Part shown: positions 4,367 to 16,149 of the stretch, piece after piece
How the letters are laid out: every line of letters starts with the position of its first letter
Position numbering within the stretch: the first letter of the stretch is position 1
DNA from: Janthinobacterium sp. PC23-8
GTDB lineage: Bacteria > Pseudomonadota > Gammaproteobacteria > Burkholderiales > Burkholderiaceae_D
Direction of reading: 5' to 3'
Length of the DNA stretch: 64,000 nt
Assembly (NCBI RefSeq): GCF_002250505.1
Contig: NZ_NJGY01000001.1
Span: 1,946,507-2,010,506 of the forward strand
The notes under the pieces: model-generated
What the model saw: only the letters and a program-made list of their open reading frames with translations
Databases searched by the model: none
Told to the model about the DNA's origin: nothing
Made by a program: the position numbers and the translations under genes

Positions 4367-6625
4367 TTAACGGATAGGCGGGTTCAATGCCTGATAGCCA
4401 GGGATCGTTTTTGTAAATGTTTCCAGGCCATTGGCGCCCAGGCCCAGGCCGTTCGACAGGCCCGTCAATTCCAGCTGGAAAAAGATCGGCGTCGACGATT
4501 TCAGGGCCGAGGTCACGAAGCGCTGCGCGCCCATGCGGAACACCCAGCAGTCACCCTTGTATTCGAGGCCAATCAGGCCCTCGAGCAGGCGGCGGTCGAG
4601 CAGCGAGTAGCTGACCCGGCCCACGCCGTACAGGCGGTCGCTCAGCGGCCATTGGGTCGACACTTCGACATTGCGGAAGCTGCCGCGCTGGAAACGGTTG
4701 CTGAGATTCAATACTTTCTTCGGACCTGGCTGGTATTGGACCGAATAGGTCGAACTGACCAGCTGGCTGTCGCTCGGGTTGTACTGTACCAGGCTGTCGA
4801 CGGTCCAGGTTTCCGACACGCGGCCGGTGGCGGCCAGCAGCATGTCCGAGCGCGACTGGTTGACCGGCGTGGTGGACGCGAGCTGCACGCGCTGGTCGGC
4901 AAAGTAGAAACGCTGGCCGAAGGTCAAACGCATGCGCTCGGCGCCATCGGCCTGCAGGAAGCGCGAGACTACCGCCGCCGTCACCTGGTTGGCGTCGCCG
5001 ATGCGGTCGCTGCCGACAAAGCGGTTTTCCGTGAAGATCTGCGTCAGGTTGAAGGTGCCGTCGGCCGTGTCGAAATTGGGGAACTGCGACTGGTCGCGGT
5101 ACGGCGTATAGACATAGAACAGGCGCGGCTCCAGCGTTTGCGTGCCGCCCTTGGCATCCTTGCCGCCGAACAGATTGCTGTCGCGCTCGAACACCAGGCC
5201 GCTGTCGACCGACACGGTGGGAACCGCGCGCGAAAACGAGGTATTCGGGAACTGCGCCTTGGTGGTGGCGTTGTTGTCGAGCTGATACGCGCTGGCGTTC
5301 AGCATCAGCTTGGGCGTGATGAAGTAGCCGGGGCGCACGACCGGGAAACTGATCTGCGGCACCACCACCATGCGCGAACCCTGCACCAGGGTCGGGTGCA
5401 CGAAACGCGTCACTTCGCTGTCGAGCGTCCAATCGAAACCGCCCCAGACATCATACTTACCAGCATGGAAGTTAATCGACGGCAAACGATCATACGGACG
5501 CGTCACGGTCAGGCTGGGATCGGTCGCGGCGGCCGGGTCCTGCAGCACCTGGTAATTCTGCACGCGCGCCGTCAGGCTCCAGTCCTCGGTGCGGTAATCG
5601 GTGCGCAGCTCGCGCAGCAGCTGGCGCTCGGTGGCGCCGGCCACGTTTTTCGAAAAGTCGCTCGGATAGTTATTGTCCGACGCGTCGCGCGCATCCCAGC
5701 CATAAGTCCAGCCCGACGCCAGCGCCTGCTCATGGCGCGTCTTGATCAGGTAGCGGTTGGTCTTGGTCTGCTTGTCGTTTGGCAAATACTCGATCGAGGT
5801 TTCGCCGCTGTACAGGCCCGCGTCGGTCTCGCCCAGGTAGCGTCCGACGCCGCCAAGCTGGATGCCGCGCCGTTGTATGTATCTGGGATACAGGGTCAGG
5901 TCGCGGTTCGGCGCGATATTGACGTAATACGGCACCAGCAGTTCGAAGCCGTTTTTCGAGTTGAAGCCCGGCGTCGGCGCCAGCCAGCCCGAGCGGCGCG
6001 CGCCCGACAGCGAGAACGAGATGCCGGGCGTACCCAGGATCGGCACGTCCTTGAAATAGATAATGGTCTTGCTGCCCGTGCCGACGTCGCGGCCCGTGTC
6101 CAGGTTCAGGGTGCTCGACTTGAGGTACCAGTCGGGGTTCGGGCCGGTGCAAGTACTGTAGGTGCCGTCGATGACCGTCGCTTCGTCCTGGTTGATGAAG
6201 TCGACGCGCTCGGCCTTGCCGCGCCCGCCGCCCACCTCAAACTGGTAGGTGGGGTTGAGCAGGAAACCCTTGCCGGTCTCCATGTTCAGCTTCATCACGT
6301 CGCCCGTGTAGTAATCGCCGAAGCGCCACATCTTGATACGGCCTTCGGCATCGAATTCATCTTCAACTTGTTTGTAACAAGCTGTATCGGCCGTCATTTT
6401 TGTGGTTTTCCCCCGCTCGATCACCACATTGCTGTTCAGATTGAGCTCGCGTTCCGGCCGTCCGCTCATGCTCTCCGCCGTCATGACGGTGGGCGCATCC
6501 ACATCTTCCACATGCGCCGGGCGGGGCGCTTTCTGGGCGTGGGCAGGCACCGCCGTGGCGGTGACGAGCGCGCTGATGGCAAAAGCCCAGCGCTGTGAAG
6601 GGGGGGAGGCCGAAAACCAGCTCAT
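4367..6625 (-). CDS. lptD: LPS-assembly protein LptD
   Basis: LptD is the outer-membrane beta-barrel that, with LptE, inserts lipopolysaccharide into the outer leaflet. The 752-aa protein begins with a signal peptide ending near VPAHA. An OstA/LptA-like beta-jellyroll follows (about residues 50-150), then a large barrel ending in NPPIR. Cysteines near the N-terminal domain (DTACYK, YSTCTG) and one near the C-terminus (KGDCWVF) could provide the interdomain disulphides known for LptD. It is the first gene of the lptD-surA-pdxA-rsmA operon. The stretch upstream holds a perfect TATAAT hexamer. Confidence 0.96.
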   Translation of the reverse strand: MSWFSASPPSQRWAFAISALVTATAVPAHAQKAPRPAHVEDVDAPTVMTAESMSGRPERELNLNSNVVIERGKTTKMTADTACYKQVEDEFDAEGRIKMWRFGDYYTGDVMKLNMETGKGFLLNPTYQFEVGGGRGKAERVDFINQDEATVIDGTYSTCTGPNPDWYLKSSTLNLDTGRDVGTGSKTIIYFKDVPILGTPGISFSLSGARRSGWLAPTPGFNSKNGFELLVPYYVNIAPNRDLTLYPRYIQRRGIQLGGVGRYLGETDAGLYSGETSIEYLPNDKQTKTNRYLIKTRHEQALASGWTYGWDARDASDNNYPSDFSKNVAGATERQLLRELRTDYRTEDWSLTARVQNYQVLQDPAAATDPSLTVTRPYDRLPSINFHAGKYDVWGGFDWTLDSEVTRFVHPTLVQGSRMVVVPQISFPVVRPGYFITPKLMLNASAYQLDNNATTKAQFPNTSFSRAVPTVSVDSGLVFERDSNLFGGKDAKGGTQTLEPRLFYVYTPYRDQSQFPNFDTADGTFNLTQIFTENRFVGSDRIGDANQVTAAVVSRFLQADGAERMRLTFGQRFYFADQRVQLASTTPVNQSRSDMLLAATGRVSETWTVDSLVQYNPSDSQLVSSTYSVQYQPGPKKVLNLSNRFQRGSFRNVEVSTQWPLSDRLYGVGRVSYSLLDRRLLEGLIGLEYKGDCWVFRMGAQRFVTSALKSSTPIFFQLELTGLSNGLGLGANGLETFTKTIPGYQALNPPIR

Positions 6626-6678
6626 GAATTCGAAGGGGCAAGCACCATTGAGAGGCGATTTTTTGATTTTAATCCCCT

Positions 6679-6684
6679 ATTATA
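6679..6684 (-). promoter_or_regulatory. Candidate -10 hexamer of the lptD operon
   Basis: A perfect TATAAT reads on the minus strand about 55 bp before the lptD start. No good -35 hexamer sits 16-18 bp upstream. A GAACTT at 6715-6710 resembles a sigma-E -35 element, but the matching sigma-E -10 is poor. Promoter assignment is an inference. Confidence 0.4.
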
Positions 6685-6903
6685 TGGGAATACGTGCGAC
6701 ACGCCTTTAAAGTTCAGCTAGCTGGACCCGACCGCAAAGCGGCAGCATCGGCGACGATGGATGGCGCAAGCCGCGCTTTGGCCATCTGTCTTGTCAATTC
6801 CACATTGCCCGTCAAGTGATAGACGATGAGCGGTCTCTTCAGCAGCACAATCACCGGAATACATACCACCATCATGCGGACGCCCATTTTTCAGCCACGG
6901 CAT

Positions 6904-6938
6904 CTGTATACATGGTACATGGCGCGATTTCTGTATAC
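6904..6938. promoter_or_regulatory. Paired CTGTATAC direct repeats upstream of hsdM
   Basis: CTGTATAC occurs at 6904-6911 and again at 6931-6938, 27 bp start to start; each contains the palindrome GTATAC. The first is embedded in TGTATACATGGTACA, an imperfect dyad. They lie just upstream of a TACAAT hexamer and about 85-115 bp before hsdM, a typical position for an operator. The bound protein is unknown. Confidence 0.35.
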
Positions 6939-7020
6939 GGTGATTTGTTACAATCATTGGCCAAGAAGAAACACTCACGGTTCAGCCGTCACGCAACAGC
7001 CTTCCAGAAATTGATACAAA

Positions 7021-8589
7021 ATGACAAGTTCAACCACGCTGCAAGATCTCGAAAACCGCTTGTGGGCCGCAGCCAACCAGCTATGGGCGATGACCGACCT
7101 GAAGCCGTCGGAGTTTTCCACCCCCGTACTGGGTCTGCTTTTCCTGCGCTACGCAGAAAAGAAATTTACCGATGCAGAAGCGCGCTTCGCTGCCGATGGC
7201 AAGGAAAAAGCCGATATCGACAAGACCGACTTCCAGGCCGAGGGCGTACTGTACCTGCCCGAGCCTGCGCGATTGAGCTACCTGCTTGATCTGGAGGAAG
7301 GCGAGAACTTGAGCAAGGCTGTCAACGACGCGATGGCAGCCATCGAGTGGGAAAACGAAGACTTGCGCGGCGTGCTGCCACGCGGCTACGCCAAGCTCGA
7401 CAATGCAGTCATACAACAACTGTTGCGCCTGCTGGCGCCGGTAAATGTCGAGGGTGACGCCTTTGGCAAGGTCTACGAATATTTTCTCGGCAAGTTTGCC
7501 ATGGCCGAAGGGCAAAAGGGCGGCGTGTTCTACACCCCGACCAGCATCGTCAAGCTGATAGTCGAGATTCTGGAACCCTACCATGGCAGGATTTTCGACC
7601 CTGCCTGCGGTTCCAGCGGCATGTTTGTTCAGAGCGCGGCGTTCGTCACGGCCCATCAACGGCGCGCAGTCGATGAGCTGGCCGTGTTCGGCACCGAAAA
7701 ATCGTCGGATACCGTCAAGCTCGGCAAGATGAATCTGGCAGTGCATGGCTTGTCGGGCGACGTGCGCGTGGCCAACAGTTTCTTTGAAGACCCGCACGAA
7801 AGCGTCGGCAAGAACGGCAAGGGCAAGTTCGATTTCGTGATGGCCAATCCGCCCTTCAACGTCAGCGGCATCGACAAGGAGCGCATCCAGGGCGACCCAC
7901 GCCTGCCATTCGGCGTGCCCAGCACCGACAATGCCAATTACCTGTGGATACAATATTTTTACAGCGCGCTGAACGACACCGGCCGCGCCGGCTTCGTGAT
8001 GGCCAACTCCGCCGGCGACGCGCGCGGCAGCGAACTGGAAATCCGCAAGCAAATCCTGCAGTCGGGCAGCGTCGATGCGGTAGTCAGCATCGGCAGCAAT
8101 TTTTTCTACACGGTGACGCTGCCTTGCACGCTGTGGTTCTTCGACAAGGGCAAGCGTACCAGTGAACGCAAGGACAAGGTGCTGTTCATCGACGCCCGCC
8201 ATATCTACCGGCAAGTCACCCGCTCGGTGCGCGACTTCACGCCAGCCCAGTGCGAATTGCTGTCCAATATCGCGCGCCTGTATCGCGGCGAGCAGCCTGA
8301 AACCATGCACGGCAGCGACGAACTGATGGCGCAGCATTTTCCTGCCGGCGTCTATGCCGATGTGGCAGGCTTGTGCAAGGTGGCGACCTTGGCCGAGATC
8401 GAGGCGCAGGGGTGGAGCTTGAATCCGGGGCGGTATGTTGGGGTGGCGGGAAAGGTTGCCGACGATTTTGTATTTACAGAGAGACTTGAAGAGTTGCATG
8501 AAGAACTTATCGCTCTGAATAGTGCTGCGGGCGATTTAGAAATAAAAATTTCGGAAGGAATCGATGCCCTTCTGCAGGAAAGAAACTGA
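7021..8589 (+). CDS. hsdM: Type I restriction-modification system, DNA methyltransferase subunit HsdM
   Basis: HsdM carries the N6-adenine methyltransferase activity of a type I restriction complex and binds HsdS for sequence recognition. The 522-aa protein has an N-terminal HsdM helical domain ([13 protein letters not shown]) and the SAM motif I as [10 protein letters not shown] near residue 195. The catalytic motif IV appears as NPPF near residue 276. hsdS starts inside its stop codon (TGATG), so the two are translationally coupled. It is the first gene of the rightward operon hsdM-hsdS-AlbA_2 gene, with hsdR following after a 200-bp gap. Confidence 0.97.
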
Positions 8590-9776
8590 TGAGTACTGTA
8601 CCGCTATCACTGGACTCCGTTTGTGATTTCATCGTCGATTGCGAGCATAAAACTGCGCCAATCCAGAAAGACGGTTACCCATCAATTAGGACTCCAAATA
8701 TCGGGCGAGGACGACTCAATCTTGAGGGGGTTAATCGTGTATCTGAGGAAACCTATATAAAATGGACAAGGCGTGGGGTGCCTAGATATCGGGATTTGAT
8801 TTTTTCCCGTGAAGCTCCTGTAGGGAACATCGCAATAATTCCTCGAGGTATAAAAGTTTGCTTAGGACAGCGAACTGTACACATACGGCCTAACGCCAGG
8901 AAAATTCATCCTGAATATCTTCTCTATTTATTGCTTGGAGATGAAATTCAGGGGCGATTTAAGTCTCAATCAAATGGTTCGACAGTACATCACTTGAATT
9001 TGAAGGATATTAGAGGATTAATCCTGCCAACTCTGCCTTCTTCGCAGGAACAATTCCGTATCGCTGAGATACTATCCACCTACGATGACCTGATTGAAAA
9101 TAACGCTCGACGTATTACAATTCTGAAAGAGATGGCACGGCGGATTTACGAGGAATGGTTTGTGAACTTCCAATTTCCGGGCCATAAAACCGTGCCGCTC
9201 GTCGAATCGGAACTTGGGCCTGTACCCGAGGGGTGGGACGTCGAAACGTTGGACAAAGCACTAGTATTGCAGCGTGGTTTTGATCTGCCAGCAGGCGATA
9301 GAAATCCGGGCCAATTTCCCATTATTGCCGCATCCGGTGTAATTGCTTACCACACGGAAAAACGGGCTGATGGTCCGGGTGTAGTCACAGGCCGCTCTGG
9401 CACAATTGGCAAGGTAATGTATGTTACTGAAGATTTTTGGCCTCTGAACACTGCTCTTTGGGTGAAAGAATTTGTACGGGTATCTCCTTTATATGGCTTT
9501 CATATGTTGTCGGGGATAGATTTCTCGGCAGTTGTGGGAGGTGCTGCAGTGCCTACGTTAAATCGTAATCATGTCCATGCGATGAAAATCGCAATACCGC
9601 CCGAAGAGATGGTTATCCGCTTTGACCAAGCGGTTGATCCACTCCAAAAACTTGCCCGCAATCTGGAGTTGAAGAATATCAATCTCCGCCAAACCCGCGA
9701 CCTGCTGTTGCCACGCCTGATTTCAGGCGAACTGGACGTTTCGACAATGCCGATGCCCGGGGACATGGCCGCATGA
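8589..9776 (+). CDS. hsdS: Type I restriction-modification system, specificity subunit HsdS
   Basis: HsdS determines which bipartite DNA sequence the complex methylates or cuts. The 395-aa protein shows two target-recognition domains separated by a central conserved helix (EQFRIAEILSTYDDLIENN, about residues 155-190). A second matching helix lies at the C-terminus (LRQTRDLLLPRLISGELDV). The first half, roughly 8600-9150, is visibly more AT-rich and uses rarer codons than hsdM or the downstream gene, as expected if recognition domains are exchanged between strains. It overlaps the next gene by ATGA. The target sequence cannot be predicted by eye. Confidence 0.95.
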   Translation: MSTVPLSLDSVCDFIVDCEHKTAPIQKDGYPSIRTPNIGRGRLNLEGVNRVSEETYIKWTRRGVPRYRDLIFSREAPVGNIAIIPRGIKVCLGQRTVHIRPNARKIHPEYLLYLLLGDEIQGRFKSQSNGSTVHHLNLKDIRGLILPTLPSSQEQFRIAEILSTYDDLIENNARRITILKEMARRIYEEWFVNFQFPGHKTVPLVESELGPVPEGWDVETLDKALVLQRGFDLPAGDRNPGQFPIIAASGVIAYHTEKRADGPGVVTGRSGTIGKVMYVTEDFWPLNTALWVKEFVRVSPLYGFHMLSGIDFSAVVGGAAVPTLNRNHVHAMKIAIPPEEMVIRFDQAVDPLQKLARNLELKNINLRQTRDLLLPRLISGELDVSTMPMPGDMAA

Positions 9777-11419
9777 GCGAAGAAAACCAGCTCTACGACA
9801 AGAAGTCGTTGAAGGTGCTCAAGGGCGGCGATGTGGGCTTGCGCGATTTGGCCGGCGATTGCGTGGCCTTTGCCAATGCCAGCGGCGGCCGTATCGACAT
9901 CGGCATCGAGGACGATGCCAGCGCGCCGGAGCCCGGGCAGCGCGTGAGCGATGCGCAGCTCGGCAAGCTGCAAAAAATGATTCCCAGCCTGACGGTGAAC
10001 GTGTCCATTTCGGTGACCCGGGAAGTCACGGAGAACGGCGGCGAAATCCTGTTGCTGCAAGTTTTTCCATCGCGGCAGAACATCGCCGCCACGTCGGACG
10101 GGCGCTATTTTTTGCGCGTGGCCGACGAGTCGCGCCGTCTGATGCCGGAAGACCTCGGGCGCCTGATGAACGACAAGTCGGCTTTCGTATGGGAAGCCCA
10201 GCCGATGCGGCAAGTGTCAACGCAGCAGATGGATACCGGCAAGGTGCGCGACTTCCTGCGCCTCATTCGCAGCTCCGACCGGGTCAGCGAACGCGTGAAG
10301 CAAAAGTCGGATCGCGAAATGCTGGAGCACTACCTGATGGTGCGCGATGATTGCCTGACCAATCTGGGGGTGCTGTGGCTGGGCTTGCGCAATGACCGCG
10401 CCGTGCTGCGCCATGCGCCGATTGTCCAGTTCATCCGTTACGACGAGCTGGGCAACAAGGTATTCAAACGCACGTGGGATGAATACAGCCTGAACCCGCA
10501 GGAACTGATCGAAGCCATCTGGCGCGACGTGCCGGATTGGCAGGACAGTTATGAATTCCCTGACGGCCTGTTCCGCAAGAACATTCCGCACTTCGACGAA
10601 GTGGTCGTGCGTGAACTGTTGGCCAATGCGCTGGTGCATCGGCCCTATACGCAGGGCGGCGATATTTTCATCTGTTTGTACCCGGACCGGCTGGAAGTGC
10701 ACAACCCGGGCTTGCTGCCGCTGGGTGTGACGGCGGCCAATATCTTGCATACGACGAAAAAACGCAATGACCATCTGGCGCAAGTCTTTTATGACCTGCG
10801 CCTGATGGAGCGCGAGGGGTCGGGTTTTGACAAGATGTATGAAGTGCTGCTGGCGAGTGGTCGGCCCGGTCCGGTGGTGGTGGAAGGCGATGATCGGGTG
10901 ACAGTGACGGTGGAACGCCGGGTGGCGCACCCTGCTGTCATTGACTTGATTGACAAGGCCGACCGCGCCTATCAGTTGCAGGCCCGCGAACGCATCATGC
11001 TGGGCTTGATTGCCCAGCATGAGTCGATGACGGCGACGCAGCTTTGCAAGGCGCTGGCGATCAAGGGCGCCGACTTGCTGAGGCCCTGGCTGGGGCGCCT
11101 GGAGCATTTCGGTATCGTGGTCACCAAAGGCCGGACCAAGGGCACCGCTTACTCGGTCAGCCCGGCCGTGCTGCGCGCACACGACTTCCGTGGCCGCACT
11201 TCGTTGAAAGGCATCGAGCGCCACCGGCTGCGCGAGCTGATCGTCAGTGACTTGCACATTTACGGCGTGGCAAAGCGCGGCGAGATTCATGACCGGATAG
11301 GCAGGGACGTGCCGGAGCGGCAGTTGCGCAGCGAGTTGATGAGCATGGTAGAGGACGGTATGCTGGAGGCGATGGGCGAGCGCGGCGGCCGGCGCTATGG
11401 ATTGACAAAAAAGACGTGA
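9773..11419 (+). CDS. AlbA_2 / HATPase domain protein inside the restriction operon
   Basis: The 548-aa protein has an N-terminal AlbA_2 (Schlafen-like, putative nucleic-acid-binding) domain marked by FANASGGRIDIGIEDD near residue 35. An HATPase_c_4-type segment lies near residue 280 (RELLANALVHRPYTQGGD, then HNPGLLPLGVT), and the C-terminal region looks like winged helices. This architecture is usually annotated as an ATP-binding transcriptional regulator or RecG-like helicase, although no helicase motifs are visible. Its ATG overlaps the hsdS stop, so it is made together with the methylase and specificity subunits. A regulatory or accessory defence role is inferred from context only. Confidence 0.85.
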   Translation: MSEENQLYDKKSLKVLKGGDVGLRDLAGDCVAFANASGGRIDIGIEDDASAPEPGQRVSDAQLGKLQKMIPSLTVNVSISVTREVTENGGEILLLQVFPSRQNIAATSDGRYFLRVADESRRLMPEDLGRLMNDKSAFVWEAQPMRQVSTQQMDTGKVRDFLRLIRSSDRVSERVKQKSDREMLEHYLMVRDDCLTNLGVLWLGLRNDRAVLRHAPIVQFIRYDELGNKVFKRTWDEYSLNPQELIEAIWRDVPDWQDSYEFPDGLFRKNIPHFDEVVVRELLANALVHRPYTQGGDIFICLYPDRLEVHNPGLLPLGVTAANILHTTKKRNDHLAQVFYDLRLMEREGSGFDKMYEVLLASGRPGPVVVEGDDRVTVTVERRVAHPAVIDLIDKADRAYQLQARERIMLGLIAQHESMTATQLCKALAIKGADLLRPWLGRLEHFGIVVTKGRTKGTAYSVSPAVLRAHDFRGRTSLKGIERHRLRELIVSDLHIYGVAKRGEIHDRIGRDVPERQLRSELMSMVEDGMLEAMGERGGRRYGLTKKT

Positions 11420-11621
11420 ATAACCGCTCAAGTGTCAAAGTTTTGTCAATCTGATTGACCAAGGATTTCGTAAGCCATTGTTAATCAAGGATAATTTCAT
11501 GGCGTCGATTGCCCGAATCCGTCAAATTTATCAGTAAAGACTGTCAATGCACGGCATCGATCAGGGATTGTTGTTGCGTTTTTCCTGAATGTGAACTTAC
11601 CTTTCGGAAGTGACCGGAACC
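11420..11621. other. Spacer between the AlbA_2 gene and hsdR
   Basis: About 200 bp that may hold a separate hsdR promoter. A 15-bp dyad GTCAATCTGATTGAC at 11445-11459 lies just after the AlbA_2 stop and could be an operator or a weak hairpin. It has no strong T-run. A 12-codon frame at 11499-11537 follows an AAGGATAATTTC but has no further support. Confidence 0.4.
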
Positions 11622-14600
11622 ATGCTCTACAACGCCGCACAAGCAGTTCCCCTTCATGCGCGCGAAGCGCCGGCCGCCTACGGCGAGATGCTGCTGGTGG
11701 AAGCACCGGCAATCGCGCTGCTGCAAACGCTGGGCTGGGCGCACGCCGACCTGTATCAGGAAAAAATAGGCAAGGCGGGCACGGAAGGGCGCGAAAGCGA
11801 GCATCAGGTGGTGCTGCCGCGCCGCTTGCGCGCTGCGCTTGAGCGGCTGAACCCCGGCTTGCCGGCGGCTGCCTACGAGCAAGCTGTCGAGCAACTGAGC
11901 GCCGACCGCAGCCGCGAGACGCCAGTCAATGCCAATCGCGCCATTTACAACTTGTTGCGCGATGGGGTCAAGGTTGCACTGCCCGATGACGAGGGCACGA
12001 TGAGTATCGAAACGCTCGCCGTCATCGACTGGCGGCAACCGGCGCGCAATGATTTTTTCGTCGCGACCCAGTTCTGGGTCAGGAGCGATATGTACCGGCG
12101 CCGTTGCGACGGCGTGGGCTTCATCAATGGATTGCCGCTGGTATTTCTGGAGTTCAAGGCACTGTCGGTCAATCTGAAGTCGGCGTTCGACGACAATTTG
12201 CGCGACTACCGTGGCCAGAGCATCCCTCAGCTATTCCATTACAACGCACTCATCATGCTGTCCAACGGGCGCGAGACGAAGATCGGCACGCTGACATCGA
12301 TGTGGGAACACTTCGCCGAATGGAAACGTATTTCCAGTGAAGAGGAATCGGCCAGGGTATCGCTGGAAACGGCGCTACGCGGCATCATGGACCATGCGCG
12401 CTTGCTGGATATGGTGGAAAATTTCACCTTGTTTGAAGAAGTGCGTGGCGGCCTCGTCAAAAAAATTGCCAAGAACCATCAGTTTTTGGGAGTAAACAAG
12501 GCCATCGTCGACATCGCCAGTCTGAAGGAAAACCAGGGGAAACTGGGGGTATTCTGGCACACGCAGGGCAGCGGCAAGAGCTTGTCGATGGTGTTCTTCA
12601 CGCAGAAAATCCTGCGTACCTTGCCGGGCGCGTGGACCTTCGTGGTGGTCACTGACCGCGATGAGCTCGATACCCAGATCTACAAGACGTTTGCCTGCAC
12701 TGGCGCGACCGGCGGCGCGAAAGCGCAAGCCGATAGCGCCGCACACTTGAAGGAACTGCTGGCAGGCAACCAGCGCCATGTATTCACACTGATTCAGAAA
12801 TTTCGCAGCGACCCGGATGCATCTTACCCGGTGCTGTCGATGCGCTCCGACATCATCGTGATGACCGATGAAGCTCATCGTAGCGAATACGGTACCTTTG
12901 CCATGAACATGCGCAAGGCATTGCCGAACGCCGCCTTTATCGGCTTTACCGGTACGCCGCTCATTAGCGGCGAAGACGAAAAAACCCGCGCGGTATTTGG
13001 CGACTATGTGTCGGTCTACAATTTCGCCCAGGCTGTCGCGGACGGTGCAACGGTGCCGCTGTATTACGAGAACCGCATTCCCGAACTGCAGCTCACGAAC
13101 GACGACCTGAACAGCGACCTTGAGGGTATTCTGGAAAGTGCGGCCCTCGACGATGAACAGGAAAAACGGTTGGAGCGCGAATTCGGGCGCCAGTATCACC
13201 TGATTACCCGCGACGGGCGCCTTGAGACCATCGCCGCCGATATCGTGCTGCATTTCACCGGGCGCGGCTATCGCGGCAAGGCGATGATGGTGTGCATCGA
13301 TAAAGTGACCGCCGTGCGCATGTACGACAAGGTGCAGGCGCATTGGCAAGCGACAATGACGCAATTGAAGGGCCAACTGGCCCAGGCCAGCGGCGACCAT
13401 GAAAATGCGCTGCGCGAACGCCTTGCCCTGATGGCCTCGACCGACATGGCCGTGGTCGTGTCGCAGAGCCAGAACGAGGTGGACGAGCTGAAAGCAAAGG
13501 GCGTGGATATCGAGCCGCACCGGCGCCTTATGTTGAACGGCAAGCTGGAAGACGATTTCAAAAACCCGGCATCGAACTTGCGCATGGTGTTCGTCTGCGC
13601 CATGTGGATGACCGGCTTCGACGTACCGACTTGCTCGACACTGTATCTGGACAAGCCGATGAAGGCCCACACACTGATGCAAGCCATCGCCCGCGCCAAC
13701 CGTGTGGCAGAGGGCAAGTCCAGCGGCCTGATTGTCGATTACATCGGCATCCTCCAGCGCCTGCAAGACGCTCTGGCAATCTACGCGCGCCCCGGTAAAG
13801 GCGGCACCGGCCCTGCCGACGTACCGGTCGAAGGCAAGGAGCAATTGCTTGCCTTGTTGGTGCAAGCGCTGGCCAGCGCCGAGGACTGGTGTACCGTGCG
13901 GGGCATCGGCCTGCCGGCCATTATCGCGGCGCAGGGCTTCGAGCGCATCGGCCTGATGATGGATGCGGTCGATGCCATTGTCACCACCGACGAGACCAGG
14001 GGACGCTTCCTGCAACTGGCCGGACAAGTGGCCAAGCGTTACAAGACCATCTTGCCGGACGCCAGCGCATCGCGGTACGCCGCAAAATCGATTGCGTTGT
14101 CTTTCCTCGCGCGTCAGGTCAAGGCATTGATGCCGCCGGTCGACATCGGCAACGTGATGAGCGACATCGAGGCATTGCTCGACGATTCGATTGCGACCGA
14201 AGGCTACCGCATTGATGCGATGGGCATGCCGACGGCGCTGATCAACCTGTCAGAAATCGATTTCGAGGCGCTCGACGCCGCTTTTCAAACCAGGAAGCGC
14301 CAACATGTCACTGCCGAGCAATTGAAGGCGGCGCTCGGGAAGAAACTGAAGGATTTGACGGACCAGAACCCGCAGCGCATCAATTTTGTCGAGCGCTTCC
14401 AGAAGCTGATCGATGAGTACAACACCGGCAGCAAAAATATCGACCAGTTTTTTAACGAGCTCAAGCGCTTTGCCCATACCTTAAGTGTCGAAGAGCAGCG
14501 CGGCGTGGCGCTGGGCTTGTCGGAAGAGGAACTGGTCATCTTCGATATTCTGACCCGCCCAGACCCGGTGCTGACCCGCGAACAGGAGCTTGCTGTGCGG

Positions 14601-14825
14601 CGCCTCGCAAAGGATTTGCTAGACAAGCTGAAATCTGAAAAACTGATACTGGACTGGCGTCTGAAGCAGCAAGCGCGCGCCGGCGTACAGAAAACCATAC
14701 GGGACCTTTTTCGCACATTGCCACAGCCCTACACCGTCGATCTGCGCCAGGAAAAGGCCGCTCGTGCTTATGGCTTCGTCTACGATACCTACCCTGGAGG
14801 AGCGAGGCCGGGCATGCATGCGTGA
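11622..14825 (+). CDS. hsdR: Type I restriction-modification system, endonuclease/translocase subunit HsdR
   Basis: HsdR is the ATP-driven DNA translocase and nuclease of the complex. The N-terminal HSDR_N nuclease domain contains a PD-(D/E)xK-like ending, FLEFK, near residue 175. The superfamily 2 motor has Walker A HTQGSGKS near 312, a DEAH box (MTDEAHRSEYG) near 415, TGTP in motif III, and IARANRVAEG in motif VI. The 1067-aa length is typical. GTG 11610 is an alternative start four codons upstream. The last residues (YDTYPGGARPGMHA) differ from the usual end as I recall it, and an intron remnant begins shortly after the stop, so the gene end may have been rebuilt. Confidence 0.95.
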   Translation: MLYNAAQAVPLHAREAPAAYGEMLLVEAPAIALLQTLGWAHADLYQEKIGKAGTEGRESEHQVVLPRRLRAALERLNPGLPAAAYEQAVEQLSADRSRETPVNANRAIYNLLRDGVKVALPDDEGTMSIETLAVIDWRQPARNDFFVATQFWVRSDMYRRRCDGVGFINGLPLVFLEFKALSVNLKSAFDDNLRDYRGQSIPQLFHYNALIMLSNGRETKIGTLTSMWEHFAEWKRISSEEESARVSLETALRGIMDHARLLDMVENFTLFEEVRGGLVKKIAKNHQFLGVNKAIVDIASLKENQGKLGVFWHTQGSGKSLSMVFFTQKILRTLPGAWTFVVVTDRDELDTQIYKTFACTGATGGAKAQADSAAHLKELLAGNQRHVFTLIQKFRSDPDASYPVLSMRSDIIVMTDEAHRSEYGTFAMNMRKALPNAAFIGFTGTPLISGEDEKTRAVFGDYVSVYNFAQAVADGATVPLYYENRIPELQLTNDDLNSDLEGILESAALDDEQEKRLEREFGRQYHLITRDGRLETIAADIVLHFTGRGYRGKAMMVCIDKVTAVRMYDKVQAHWQATMTQLKGQLAQASGDHENALRERLALMASTDMAVVVSQSQNEVDELKAKGVDIEPHRRLMLNGKLEDDFKNPASNLRMVFVCAMWMTGFDVPTCSTLYLDKPMKAHTLMQAIARANRVAEGKSSGLIVDYIGILQRLQDALAIYARPGKGGTGPADVPVEGKEQLLALLVQALASAEDWCTVRGIGLPAIIAAQGFERIGLMMDAVDAIVTTDETRGRFLQLAGQVAKRYKTILPDASASRYAAKSIALSFLARQVKALMPPVDIGNVMSDIEALLDDSIATEGYRIDAMGMPTALINLSEIDFEALDAAFQTRKRQHVTAEQLKAALGKKLKDLTDQNPQRINFVERFQKLIDEYNTGSKNIDQFFNELKRFAHTLSVEEQRGVALGLSEEELVIFDILTRPDPVLTREQELAVRRLAKDLLDKLKSEKLILDWRLKQQARAGVQKTIRDLFRTLPQPYTVDLRQEKAARAYGFVYDTYPGGARPGMHA

Positions 14826-15081
14826 TCGGTGCCTGCCCACGCCACACCGGGCCGTGTGCCAGGTGGTTCCGAGGCCCCTGGAAATGGCGTATTATTGCAC
14901 CCAAATTGCCATATACATGTGCACGCAAACGATTTACACGTTGCGAAGCCGGTTCCTGTACAGGGACCATGCTTGAGCCGTGTGCGCTGAAAGTCGCACG
15001 CACGGCTCCCGGGGAGGAGCGCTGCCAGCAATGGGGTTCTCCTGTCCTGCGCACCATCAACCCGATTCCACAGGCCGCTTA
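14826..15081. other. Right edge of the restriction island with group II intron remnant
   Basis: These 256 bp between hsdR and amgK contain no convincing gene. The second half holds a group II intron domain V and a domain VI-like hairpin, annotated separately. Just before them is a hairpin (14951-14968, GGTTCCTG-TA-CAGGGACC, one G-U pair) that could be a leftover of domain III or IV. No frame here resembles the end of an intron reverse transcriptase. The stretch also serves as the leader of amgK, which has only a weak ribosome-binding site. Confidence 0.55.
14975..15050 (+). mobile_element. Group II intron 3' remnant: domain V and decayed domain VI
   Basis: Bases 14975-15008 form a 34-nt hairpin with the features of group II intron domain V. 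It begins GAGCCG with the catalytic AGC triad, has a GAAA tetraloop at 14989-14992, a two-base AC bulge at 14998-14999, and ends CACGGCTC. Its length and layout match the yeast ai5-gamma domain V as I recall it; the one mismatch is C-U near the loop. After a short linker, 15011-15047 folds as a domain VI-like hairpin (GGGGAGGAG with CTCCTGTCC), but the position expected for the bulged branch-point A (15044) is G. No complete domains I-IV or reverse transcriptase gene lies upstream, so this is a non-functional fragment. Confidence 0.75.
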
Positions 15082-16149
15082 ATGTCATTGTCTTCCCATT
15101 CCCCCAACGCGCCGGCACCCGCCGACGCGCGCCTGACCCTGTTGAAAGCCTGGTTGAGCACGCTGAACCTCGTCGCGCCCGATTCCGCCCGCCCCGCGTC
15201 GAGCGACGCCAGCTTTCGCCGCTACTACCGGCTCGACGTCCTGCCGGGCGCCGCCAACGTGGCAGGCACCACCCTGATCGCCATGGATGCGCCGCCCGAA
15301 CGTGAAAACGTGCCCGCCTTTGTCAAGGTGGCGCACCTGCTGAAAAACGCCGGCGTGTCCGTGCCCGAGATCGTCGCGCAGGACCTGGATAACGGCTTTT
15401 TGCTGCTGTCCGACCTCGGCACCACCACCTACCTCGATGCGCTGAACCACGACAACGCGGCGGTGCTGTACGCCGAAGCGCTGGAGTCCTTGATGAAAAT
15501 CCAGCAGGCCAGCGCGCCGGGCGTGCTGCCTGAATTCGACCGCGCCTTCATTCTGCGCGAAATGAATCTGTTCCCGGAATGGTTTATCGGCAAGCACCTG
15601 GGCGCCACCCTGACCGACGTGCAGGAAACCCAGCTGAACAAAGTGTTCGAGGCGATCACGGCCAATATCCTGTCGCAGCAACAAGTGTTCATGCACCGCG
15701 ACTACCATTCGCGCAACCTGATGCATGTCAACGACGGCTCCCTGCCCAACCCCGGCATCCTCGACTTCCAGGACGCCGTGTTCGGCCCCATCACCTACGA
15801 TATCGCCTCGCTGCTGCGCGACGCCTATATCCAGTGGGATGAGGAACTGGTGCTCGACTGGGTGATCCGCTACTGGCAGCGCGCCAAGCAGCTGGGCCTG
15901 CCTGTCAATCCCGATATCGATGCGTTTTACCGCGACTTCGAATTCACGGCCCTGCAGCGCCACCTGAAAATCCTCGGCCTGTTCACGCGCCTGAACTACC
16001 GCGACGGCAAGCCGCTGTACATGGGCGACCTGCCCACCGTGCTCGACTACGTGCGCAAGACGGCCAACCGCTATACGGAACTCAAACCGCTGGTGCGCCT
16101 GCTCGACGCGCTCGAGAACAAGACCCCGCAGGTAGGCTATACCTTCTGA
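15082..16149 (+). CDS. amgK: N-acetylmuramate/N-acetylglucosamine kinase AmgK
   Basis: AmgK phosphorylates the anomeric carbon of MurNAc (and GlcNAc), the first step of the cell-wall recycling route that bypasses de novo UDP-MurNAc synthesis and gives intrinsic fosfomycin tolerance in Pseudomonas. The 355-aa protein has the aminoglycoside-phosphotransferase fold, with catalytic loop MHRDYHSRNL near residue 204 and the metal-binding DFQD near 227. ATG 15082 matches the family N-terminus; longer frames would run into the intron remnant. murU follows after 30 bp, as in Pseudomonas. Confidence 0.92.
   Translation: MSLSSHSPNAPAPADARLTLLKAWLSTLNLVAPDSARPASSDASFRRYYRLDVLPGAANVAGTTLIAMDAPPERENVPAFVKVAHLLKNAGVSVPEIVAQDLDNGFLLLSDLGTTTYLDALNHDNAAVLYAEALESLMKIQQASAPGVLPEFDRAFILREMNLFPEWFIGKHLGATLTDVQETQLNKVFEAITANILSQQQVFMHRDYHSRNLMHVNDGSLPNPGILDFQDAVFGPITYDIASLLRDAYIQWDEELVLDWVIRYWQRAKQLGLPVNPDIDAFYRDFEFTALQRHLKILGLFTRLNYRDGKPLYMGDLPTVLDYVRKTANRYTELKPLVRLLDALENKTPQVGYTF

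Follow-up and report, generated by a model that had tools for sequence, protein, structure and literature searches.

Introns of the Ll.LtrB type retrohome to a fixed homing site, and truncated bacterial group II introns are met as dead copies in which domain V (DV) is kept. The 5′ end of a group II intron follows the consensus GUGYG. In the sigma70 -10 box, the positions most conserved are T1, A2 and T6. The available part of a 2015 review distinguishes three target specificities of bacterial introns, namely homing sites, terminators and attC (PMC4424553). According to the same part of that text, class C introns insert at terminators or attC (Robart 2007 and Quiroga 2008, as cited in PMC4424553) and their protein is devoid of an endonuclease domain. 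Thermosynechococcus introns are described, in the portion of the paper available, as having relaxed targets with a protein that reads at most 1-2 exon bases; the insertions listed there lie in intergenic regions, an IS and genes, and no promoter rule is named (Mohr 2010, PMC2882425). In the literature searched, a partial set of titles and abstract openings, no report of insertion at -10 boxes or promoters was found, and "promoter" occurs 0 times in the main text of PMC8919778, as far as the available text goes.

Here we analyse a hairpin upstream of amgK in a Janthinobacterium genome, within a 64-kb stretch of DNA hereafter called the window. We read it, with a probability of roughly 0.87, as the 3′ end of a group II intron, now dead, that came from a promoter-inserting Burkholderiales clade with a -10-recognising ribonucleoprotein (RNP), and that was later split by an island.

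The tail of a dead group II intron upstream of amgK

A sequence-only reading of the window had proposed a 34-nt domain V hairpin at 14975-15008 and suggested a covariance-model search as a check. This search (cmscan, whole window) supports it: RF00029 (DV-DVI) matches at 14973-15071 on the forward strand with 43.1 bits, above the gathering score of 40 (E = 3.9e-5 for 64 kb; 3e-7 for 500 bases), and is the only Rfam match at gathering score in the 64 kb. The bulge described earlier as AC is present but has 3 nt (ACG) in the Rfam structure line. The outer stem of DV is well paired in a single-sequence fold, and the stem below the GAAA loop is weak, with one non-standard pair in Rfam and an 8-nt loop in that fold. 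The domain VI (DVI)-like hairpin with a G at the branch, also noticed earlier, was recovered as a fold at about 15011-15047; position 15044 is G against A in 17 aligned relatives, except L028, which also has G. Judging from its bases the window copy is dead, because the core is gone and because DVI has G15044 where a bulged branch A is required.

The idea of a decayed group II intron tail held, relatives having the same sequence as the end of a whole intron. Chance or a covariance-model artefact was ruled out, the intron being present at the same place in congeners. RF02012 (D1-D4) has no match in the window and is found in relatives. A full intron, which the first reading had proposed to look for in the same genome, was not found there, and it is congeners that carry one. 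In the window's own genome no further RF00029 match appeared among the 150 of 258 first-look candidates scored, and no copy of the intron protein matched at E<=1e-100. A PLSDB search for plasmid copies of the 259-bp tail (14826-15084) returned none with E<=1e-5 as the cut-off.

A type I restriction island between the two intron ends

On the far side of the island, 6694-6752 aligns with the intron 5′ end GTGCGACACGCC: 46 of 59 aligned positions are the same as in the congeneric intron L022, with an alignment score of 31 where the best among 500 shuffles reached 5, and GTGCG at 6694 fits the group II 5′ end GUGYG. Adjoining DV, about 36 codons of the HNH end of the intron protein are still readable at 14852-14960. 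The match between the window and the intron-bearing loci breaks off at 6752 on the lptD flank and resumes at 14852 towards amgK, the island falling in the gap; joining 6693 to 15051 gives GGGAATAC^GCACCATCAACCC, as in the intron-free sites of L042-L045. The reverse transcriptase (RT) domain is absent, as had been stated earlier; the accompanying claim that domains I-IV are also absent needs a small correction, since the first 59 nt survive at 6694-6752 together with the end of the ORF-bearing region, and these are all that the window keeps of them. The tail had likewise been placed at the junction of a restriction island. It does adjoin the island, but the other end of the intron lies beyond, so that the intron encloses the island and does not only border it with its tail. 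The insertion target, 10 nt after the amgK -10 box, is absent from the earlier reading. By these alignments, a type I restriction island is inside a dead intron inserted between the amgK promoter and amgK (Table 1).

Table 1. Features of the lptD/amgK region, in window coordinates.
Feature	Position	Strand	Basis
lptD, divergent neighbour	4367-6625	-	Pfam LptD
TATTAT, -10-like box facing amgK	6678-6683	+	sequence; kept in intron-free relatives
TATAAT, -10-like box facing lptD	6679-6684	-	sequence; conserved in relatives
Dead group II intron 5′ end (GTGCGAC...)	6694-6752	+	alignment to L022
Type I restriction island, inside intron	6870-14826	+	homology to G007:C34 (L230) except 8491-9671
hsdM	7021-8589	+	Pfam N6_Mtase, HsdM_N
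hsdS	8589-9776	+	Pfam Methylase_S
AlbA_2/HATPase_c_4 protein	9773-11419	+	Pfam
hsdR	11610-14825	+	Pfam; TIGR00348
Remnant of intron protein gene 3′ end (HNH end)	14852-14960	+	alignment, frame
Domain V	14975-15008	+	RF00029
Domain VI with the intron 3′ end; G15044 at the branch position	15009-15050	+	RF00029, alignment with relatives, fold
3′ exon, the amgK leader, joining to 6693 as in empty sites	15051-15081	+	alignment
amgK	15082-16149	+	Pfam APH

The type I restriction-modification gene set is complete by Pfam (hsdM, hsdS, hsdR), with hsdM scoring below the TIGR00497 cut-off; the protein encoded between hsdS and hsdR (9773-11419) has no NCBIfam match at E 0.001. For the amgK orthologue in L132 the best NCBIfam match is AmgK, below cut-off. 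An hsdR query matched 9 of 40 genus genomes at E<=0.001 (own included), near full length only in the own genome and in G007 (92%). The G007 copy of the island (L230, G007:C34:86000-104000) lies elsewhere in that congener and differs mainly in hsdS: it is 91-92% identical over 6870-8490 and 9672-14826, and between 8490 and 9672 only 9069-9241 matches, at 76%. An Rfam scan found no intron parts near it at gathering score, so a close, intron-free copy of the island is present at another location.

Intact introns in congeners and the lptD/amgK promoter

The 259-bp query 14826-15084 was run against 61 genomes (own included), 35 of which match. In seven congeners the match begins at 14852 or 14853 and runs through the rest of the query at 86-90% identity; many other genomes match only the last ~35 bases, that is, the amgK leader. 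A group II intron of ~2.9 kb that encodes an RT-maturase-HNH protein occupies the position of the window's amgK junction in congeners. Both RF02012 and RF00029 are present in six of the seven (L022-L027); in L028 neither model reaches the gathering score. L022, L023, L025 and L026 retain a reading frame that is open for 624-676 codons from stop to stop; L024, L027 and L028 have shorter frames and represent shortened or decayed introns. Intermediate decay is seen at lptD/amgK in L027 and L028, which keep both ends, have lost most of the protein gene and contain no island. The L022 intron protein has RVT_1, GIIM and HNH domains, as do the intron proteins P0001 and P0002, and P0001 passes TIGR04416. 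Their best solved relative is T.el4h (PDB 6me0; 548 bits), which we take to belong to class CL1/IIB.

The divergent lptD/amgK promoter (window 6669-6694) has overlapping -10-like boxes on opposite strands and has been invaded by introns in both directions (L024, L039, L138). In the window, TATTAT at 6678-6683 stands 10 nt before the intron 5′ end; in relatives the amgK-facing intron follows TATTATATGGGAATCT, and in L039 and L024 an lptD-facing intron comes after TATAATAAGGGATTCA. G007 has two intron 5′ ends at this place, head to head. Across the genus, 31 loci were read, of which L040 (G001) gave no pattern match. An amgK-facing 5′ end is found in G007, G009, G013, G014, G018, G019, G028, G029 and G240, and the window has one as a fossil; 5′ ends facing lptD, judged from their first bases, occur in G010, G007 and G017. 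No amgK-side intron occurs in 20 congeneric loci (L042-L061), and the genomes with the best amgK matches to the window, G012 and G010 (91-92%), are both without an amgK-directed intron, so that the amgK-side introns may go back either to one old insertion or to repeated entry. Occupation of lptD/amgK is not limited to this genus: within the best 80 of at least 569 matches, introns are also there in Massilia (L136), Duganella (L138) and Noviherbaspirillum (L144).

A -10-like hexamer precedes the insertion sites

A search of 392 genomes from the bacterial family for relatives of the protein P0001 gave matches at E<=1e-100 in 46, sister introns included. In named genomes, the best 80 of at least 569 confirmed matches were kept as loci; three (L158, L195, L208) gave no 5′ end, and additional GTGCGAC matches in L135, L150, L166 and L196 were set aside by distance. 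With 20 sites of our own choosing added, 97 insertion sites were obtained, some duplicating other loci before clustering, and these reduce to 57 non-redundant ones.

In the 57 unselected rows, the start of TA...T falls at -16 in 43 cases and at -17 in 12, and any other start between -60 and -6 is found in fewer than 7. TANNNT, mostly TATAAT or TACAAT, is at -16 or -17 (10-11 nt before the intron) in 92/95 scored sites, the three exceptions being CATAAT at -16, TATTAT at -15 and CATAAT at -18. Among 55 non-redundant sites the hexamer is TATAAT in 19 and TACAAT in 14. In the 2038 TANNNT words that form the background in the same loci, positions 3-5 hold more C and G; that these positions, left free by the guide, are nevertheless biased towards TATAAT/TACAAT relative to the background points to real -10 boxes.

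Intron-free alleles were queried for eight sites, and 13 matches for seven of them, all other than amgK, were read. All 13 keep the hexamer, with altered hexamer-to-junction spacing in two (L251, L253), and the eighth site, rimO, had no intron-free allele among the matches listed.

Sister introns, with proteins 47-56% identical, have TANNNT at -16 to -18 in 0/12 sites. For this count 19 loci were scanned for a 5′ end, which L127, L236, L239 and L240 did not give; the near-duplicates L131, L232 and L235 were left uncounted, and one of several GTGCGAC matches was picked by eye where a locus had more. A midpoint-rooted FastTree tree divides the 55 proteins of promoter-site introns from 17 sister proteins with support 0.973. 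In L130, L131, L234 and L235, sister introns (about 50% identical proteins) lie inside a putative gene, presumably for tRNA-Gly, near the anticodon loop.

The gene downstream of the promoter-site introns is co-oriented in 63/65 scored loci, mostly within about 100 nt; this scoring omitted 14/80 loci without DV by pattern, and one of the remaining 66 gave no gene. The two opposite-oriented cases, L204 and L206, share their site with L209, whose gene is co-oriented. Of 36 listed products, 30 were scanned against NCBIfam and 22 pass the cut-off: nucleoside bisphosphate phosphatase, SerS, ArgH, AcuI, UbiE, DapA, RimO, LipB, ornithine carbamoyltransferase, HisZ, phosphatidylserine decarboxylase, SecA, RibF, UvrC, PyrG, IMP dehydrogenase, ZapD, phosphoenolpyruvate synthase, ErpA, SecB, nucleoside-diphosphate kinase and HflK. 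AmgK, LptD, octaprenyl diphosphate synthase and MepK fall below it, and the products at L157, L168, L192 and L152 have no NCBIfam match.

A search for -35 enrichment upstream of the site hexamers returned none (mean best match 2.71/6 vs 2.68 shuffled; a match of 4 or more at 8/55 sites), but the same comparison for 52 control hexamers that precede genes in these loci shows no enrichment either (2.48 vs 2.67 shuffled), so the test is of little weight in either direction. Promoter function at the sites is supported by the letters of the putative -10, its place and the direction of the gene.

At psd (L160, L162, L165, L182) a terminator-like hairpin can be seen by eye just upstream of the -10-like target. 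Burkholderia, Paraburkholderia and Caballeronia share occupied promoters, in the sets L149, L150, L172, L176; L151, L163, L188, L197; and L152-L154, L156, L159. Occupancy of one promoter in several genomes with differing intron heads could mean either repeated entry or long residence.

Intron RNA stretches that covary with the target

Covariation in the 97-intron alignment picks out two stretches of the intron RNA, which we read as EBS1 and EBS2. Positions -6 to -1 are Watson-Crick with EBS1 in 41-54 of 54 introns, depending on position, and -7 is without EBS1 pairing (11/54, equal to shuffled). Against shuffles that overstate independence because the introns are related, hexamer position 3 is Watson-Crick with alignment column 1445 in 55/55, with all four letters represented (shuffle mean 22.4, max 33), position 4 with EBS2 in 52/55 (mean 36.7, max 43) and position 5 in 54/55 (mean 36.7, max 45). 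T6 stands opposite an invariant A of EBS2, and the two bases after the hexamer pair with EBS2 in 53/55 (+1) and 47/55 (+2); T1 and A2 have no pairing partner in the register tested. The counts omit L027 and L028, in which domain I is deleted, and three sites without TANNNT at -16/-17, and T1, A2 and T6 are fixed in them because of this choice of rows. The next EBS2 base (column 1453) was rejected as the reader of position 3, with 17/55 Watson-Crick pairs against a shuffle mean of 18.1 and 28 more wobble pairs; position 3 would rather be read by a separate base of the EBS2 loop.

A proposed promoter-reading retroelement and the alternatives

Quite probably, the clade as a whole is a promoter-reading retroelement: its RNP would decode the sigma70 -10 element, with T1/A2/T6 hard-wired and 3-5 guide-coded, settle at ~+4/+5 of housekeeping genes throughout Burkholderiales and live off the host promoter. 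What can be read directly from the sequences compared is the pair of intron ends, the island nested between them, the motif, the pairing and the empty alleles; the steps that connect them are proposed as follows. The RNP would recognise a -10 element in which T1, A2 and T6 are nearly fixed, T1 and A2 presumably through the protein, with positions 3-5 and the next two bases pairing with the EBS2 loop and -6 to -1 with EBS1. Insertion, by a route that we infer to be retrohoming, would place the intron in the coding strand at a distance of 10-11 nt downstream of the hexamer, which corresponds to roughly +4/+5 of the transcript expected there, and the host promoter would then transcribe the intron together with the gene behind it. 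In the window genome, the intron would have inserted into the divergent lptD/amgK promoter on its amgK side and lost its core, and its two ends came to flank the type I restriction island, presumably in that order.

Among other accounts of the -10 preference, entry into promoters melted by RNA polymerase, with the open complex and not the protein of the intron providing the choice, is unlikely but deserves the most attention. The fixed T1, A2 and T6 coincide with the most conserved -10 positions and the insertion point lies close to the leading edge of the bubble, as that account would have it, yet the intron RNA pairs with positions 3-6 and the bases that follow, which is enough for part of the choice. 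It is improbable that the introns land widely without special targeting and that the promoter link is selection, survivors being left only in leaders of important genes; the sites are indeed close before housekeeping genes, where insertion is least harmful, but selection would allow any place in the leader, whereas the spacing is 10 or 11 nt in 92/95, the RNA pairs with the hexamer, and no comparable rule is seen at the 12 sites of sister introns from the same bacterial family. We find it slightly harder still to believe that the hexamer is a target word of the intron and nothing more, met in AT-rich leaders and not in promoters. The missing -35 signal agrees with this, but the guide-free positions 3-5 are -10-like, unlike the 2038 background words, and gene position, gene orientation and the hexamers of the intron-free alleles also speak against it.

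Two further alternatives concern the window alone. Unrelated 5′ and 3′ scraps might flank the island by chance, so that the island never entered an intron, and its edges, 6753-6869 (117 nt) and 14827-14851 (25 nt), match neither the intron nor the G007 island; the scraps, however, are the true ends of an intron of the same site, correctly ordered and on the correct strand, and the sequences outside them, when joined, restore an empty site, which makes chance very improbable. Least credible of all is a DV-DVI tail kept as a working leader RNA of amgK. The outer stem of DV is well paired, but the branch base is lost and the 20 congeneric loci L042-L061 have amgK without the intron on its side. 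A conserved leader, which the first reading had named as the finding that would overturn it, was looked for in relatives and rejected: their sequence is the end of the intron and is absent from empty-site congeners.

If promoter reading by this clade is true, -10 decoding would be a fourth target specificity of bacterial group II introns, would explain introns beside secA, serS, guaB and pyrG that do not break those genes, and would make retargeting testable because the guide letters are readable from the intron. As for the window, its restriction system occupies a position that an intron had opened beforehand, with the amgK promoter on one side and amgK on the other.

Comparison with described introns

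Choice of a -10 box looks like a fourth specificity beside the three described; its novelty is not proven. The likeness to class C (IIC) introns, as far as the available accounts of these go, is that a regulatory or structural DNA motif is the target and coding sequence is spared; unlike them, the Burkholderiales introns appear to target the -10 hexamer at the start of transcription, with letters paired by RNA, and their protein has an HNH domain. With Thermosynechococcus introns such as T.el4h they share the EBS1/EBS2 pairing to the 5′ exon. Ll.LtrB-type introns also have a site defined by RNA pairing plus protein contacts, but theirs is one fixed homing site, as opposed to many promoters in the Burkholderiales clade. 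Truncated bacterial introns, finally, share with the window a dead copy that keeps DV; the window differs in that both ends are kept, around a restriction island. Taken alone, the window copy is an ordinary fossil in an unusual setting.
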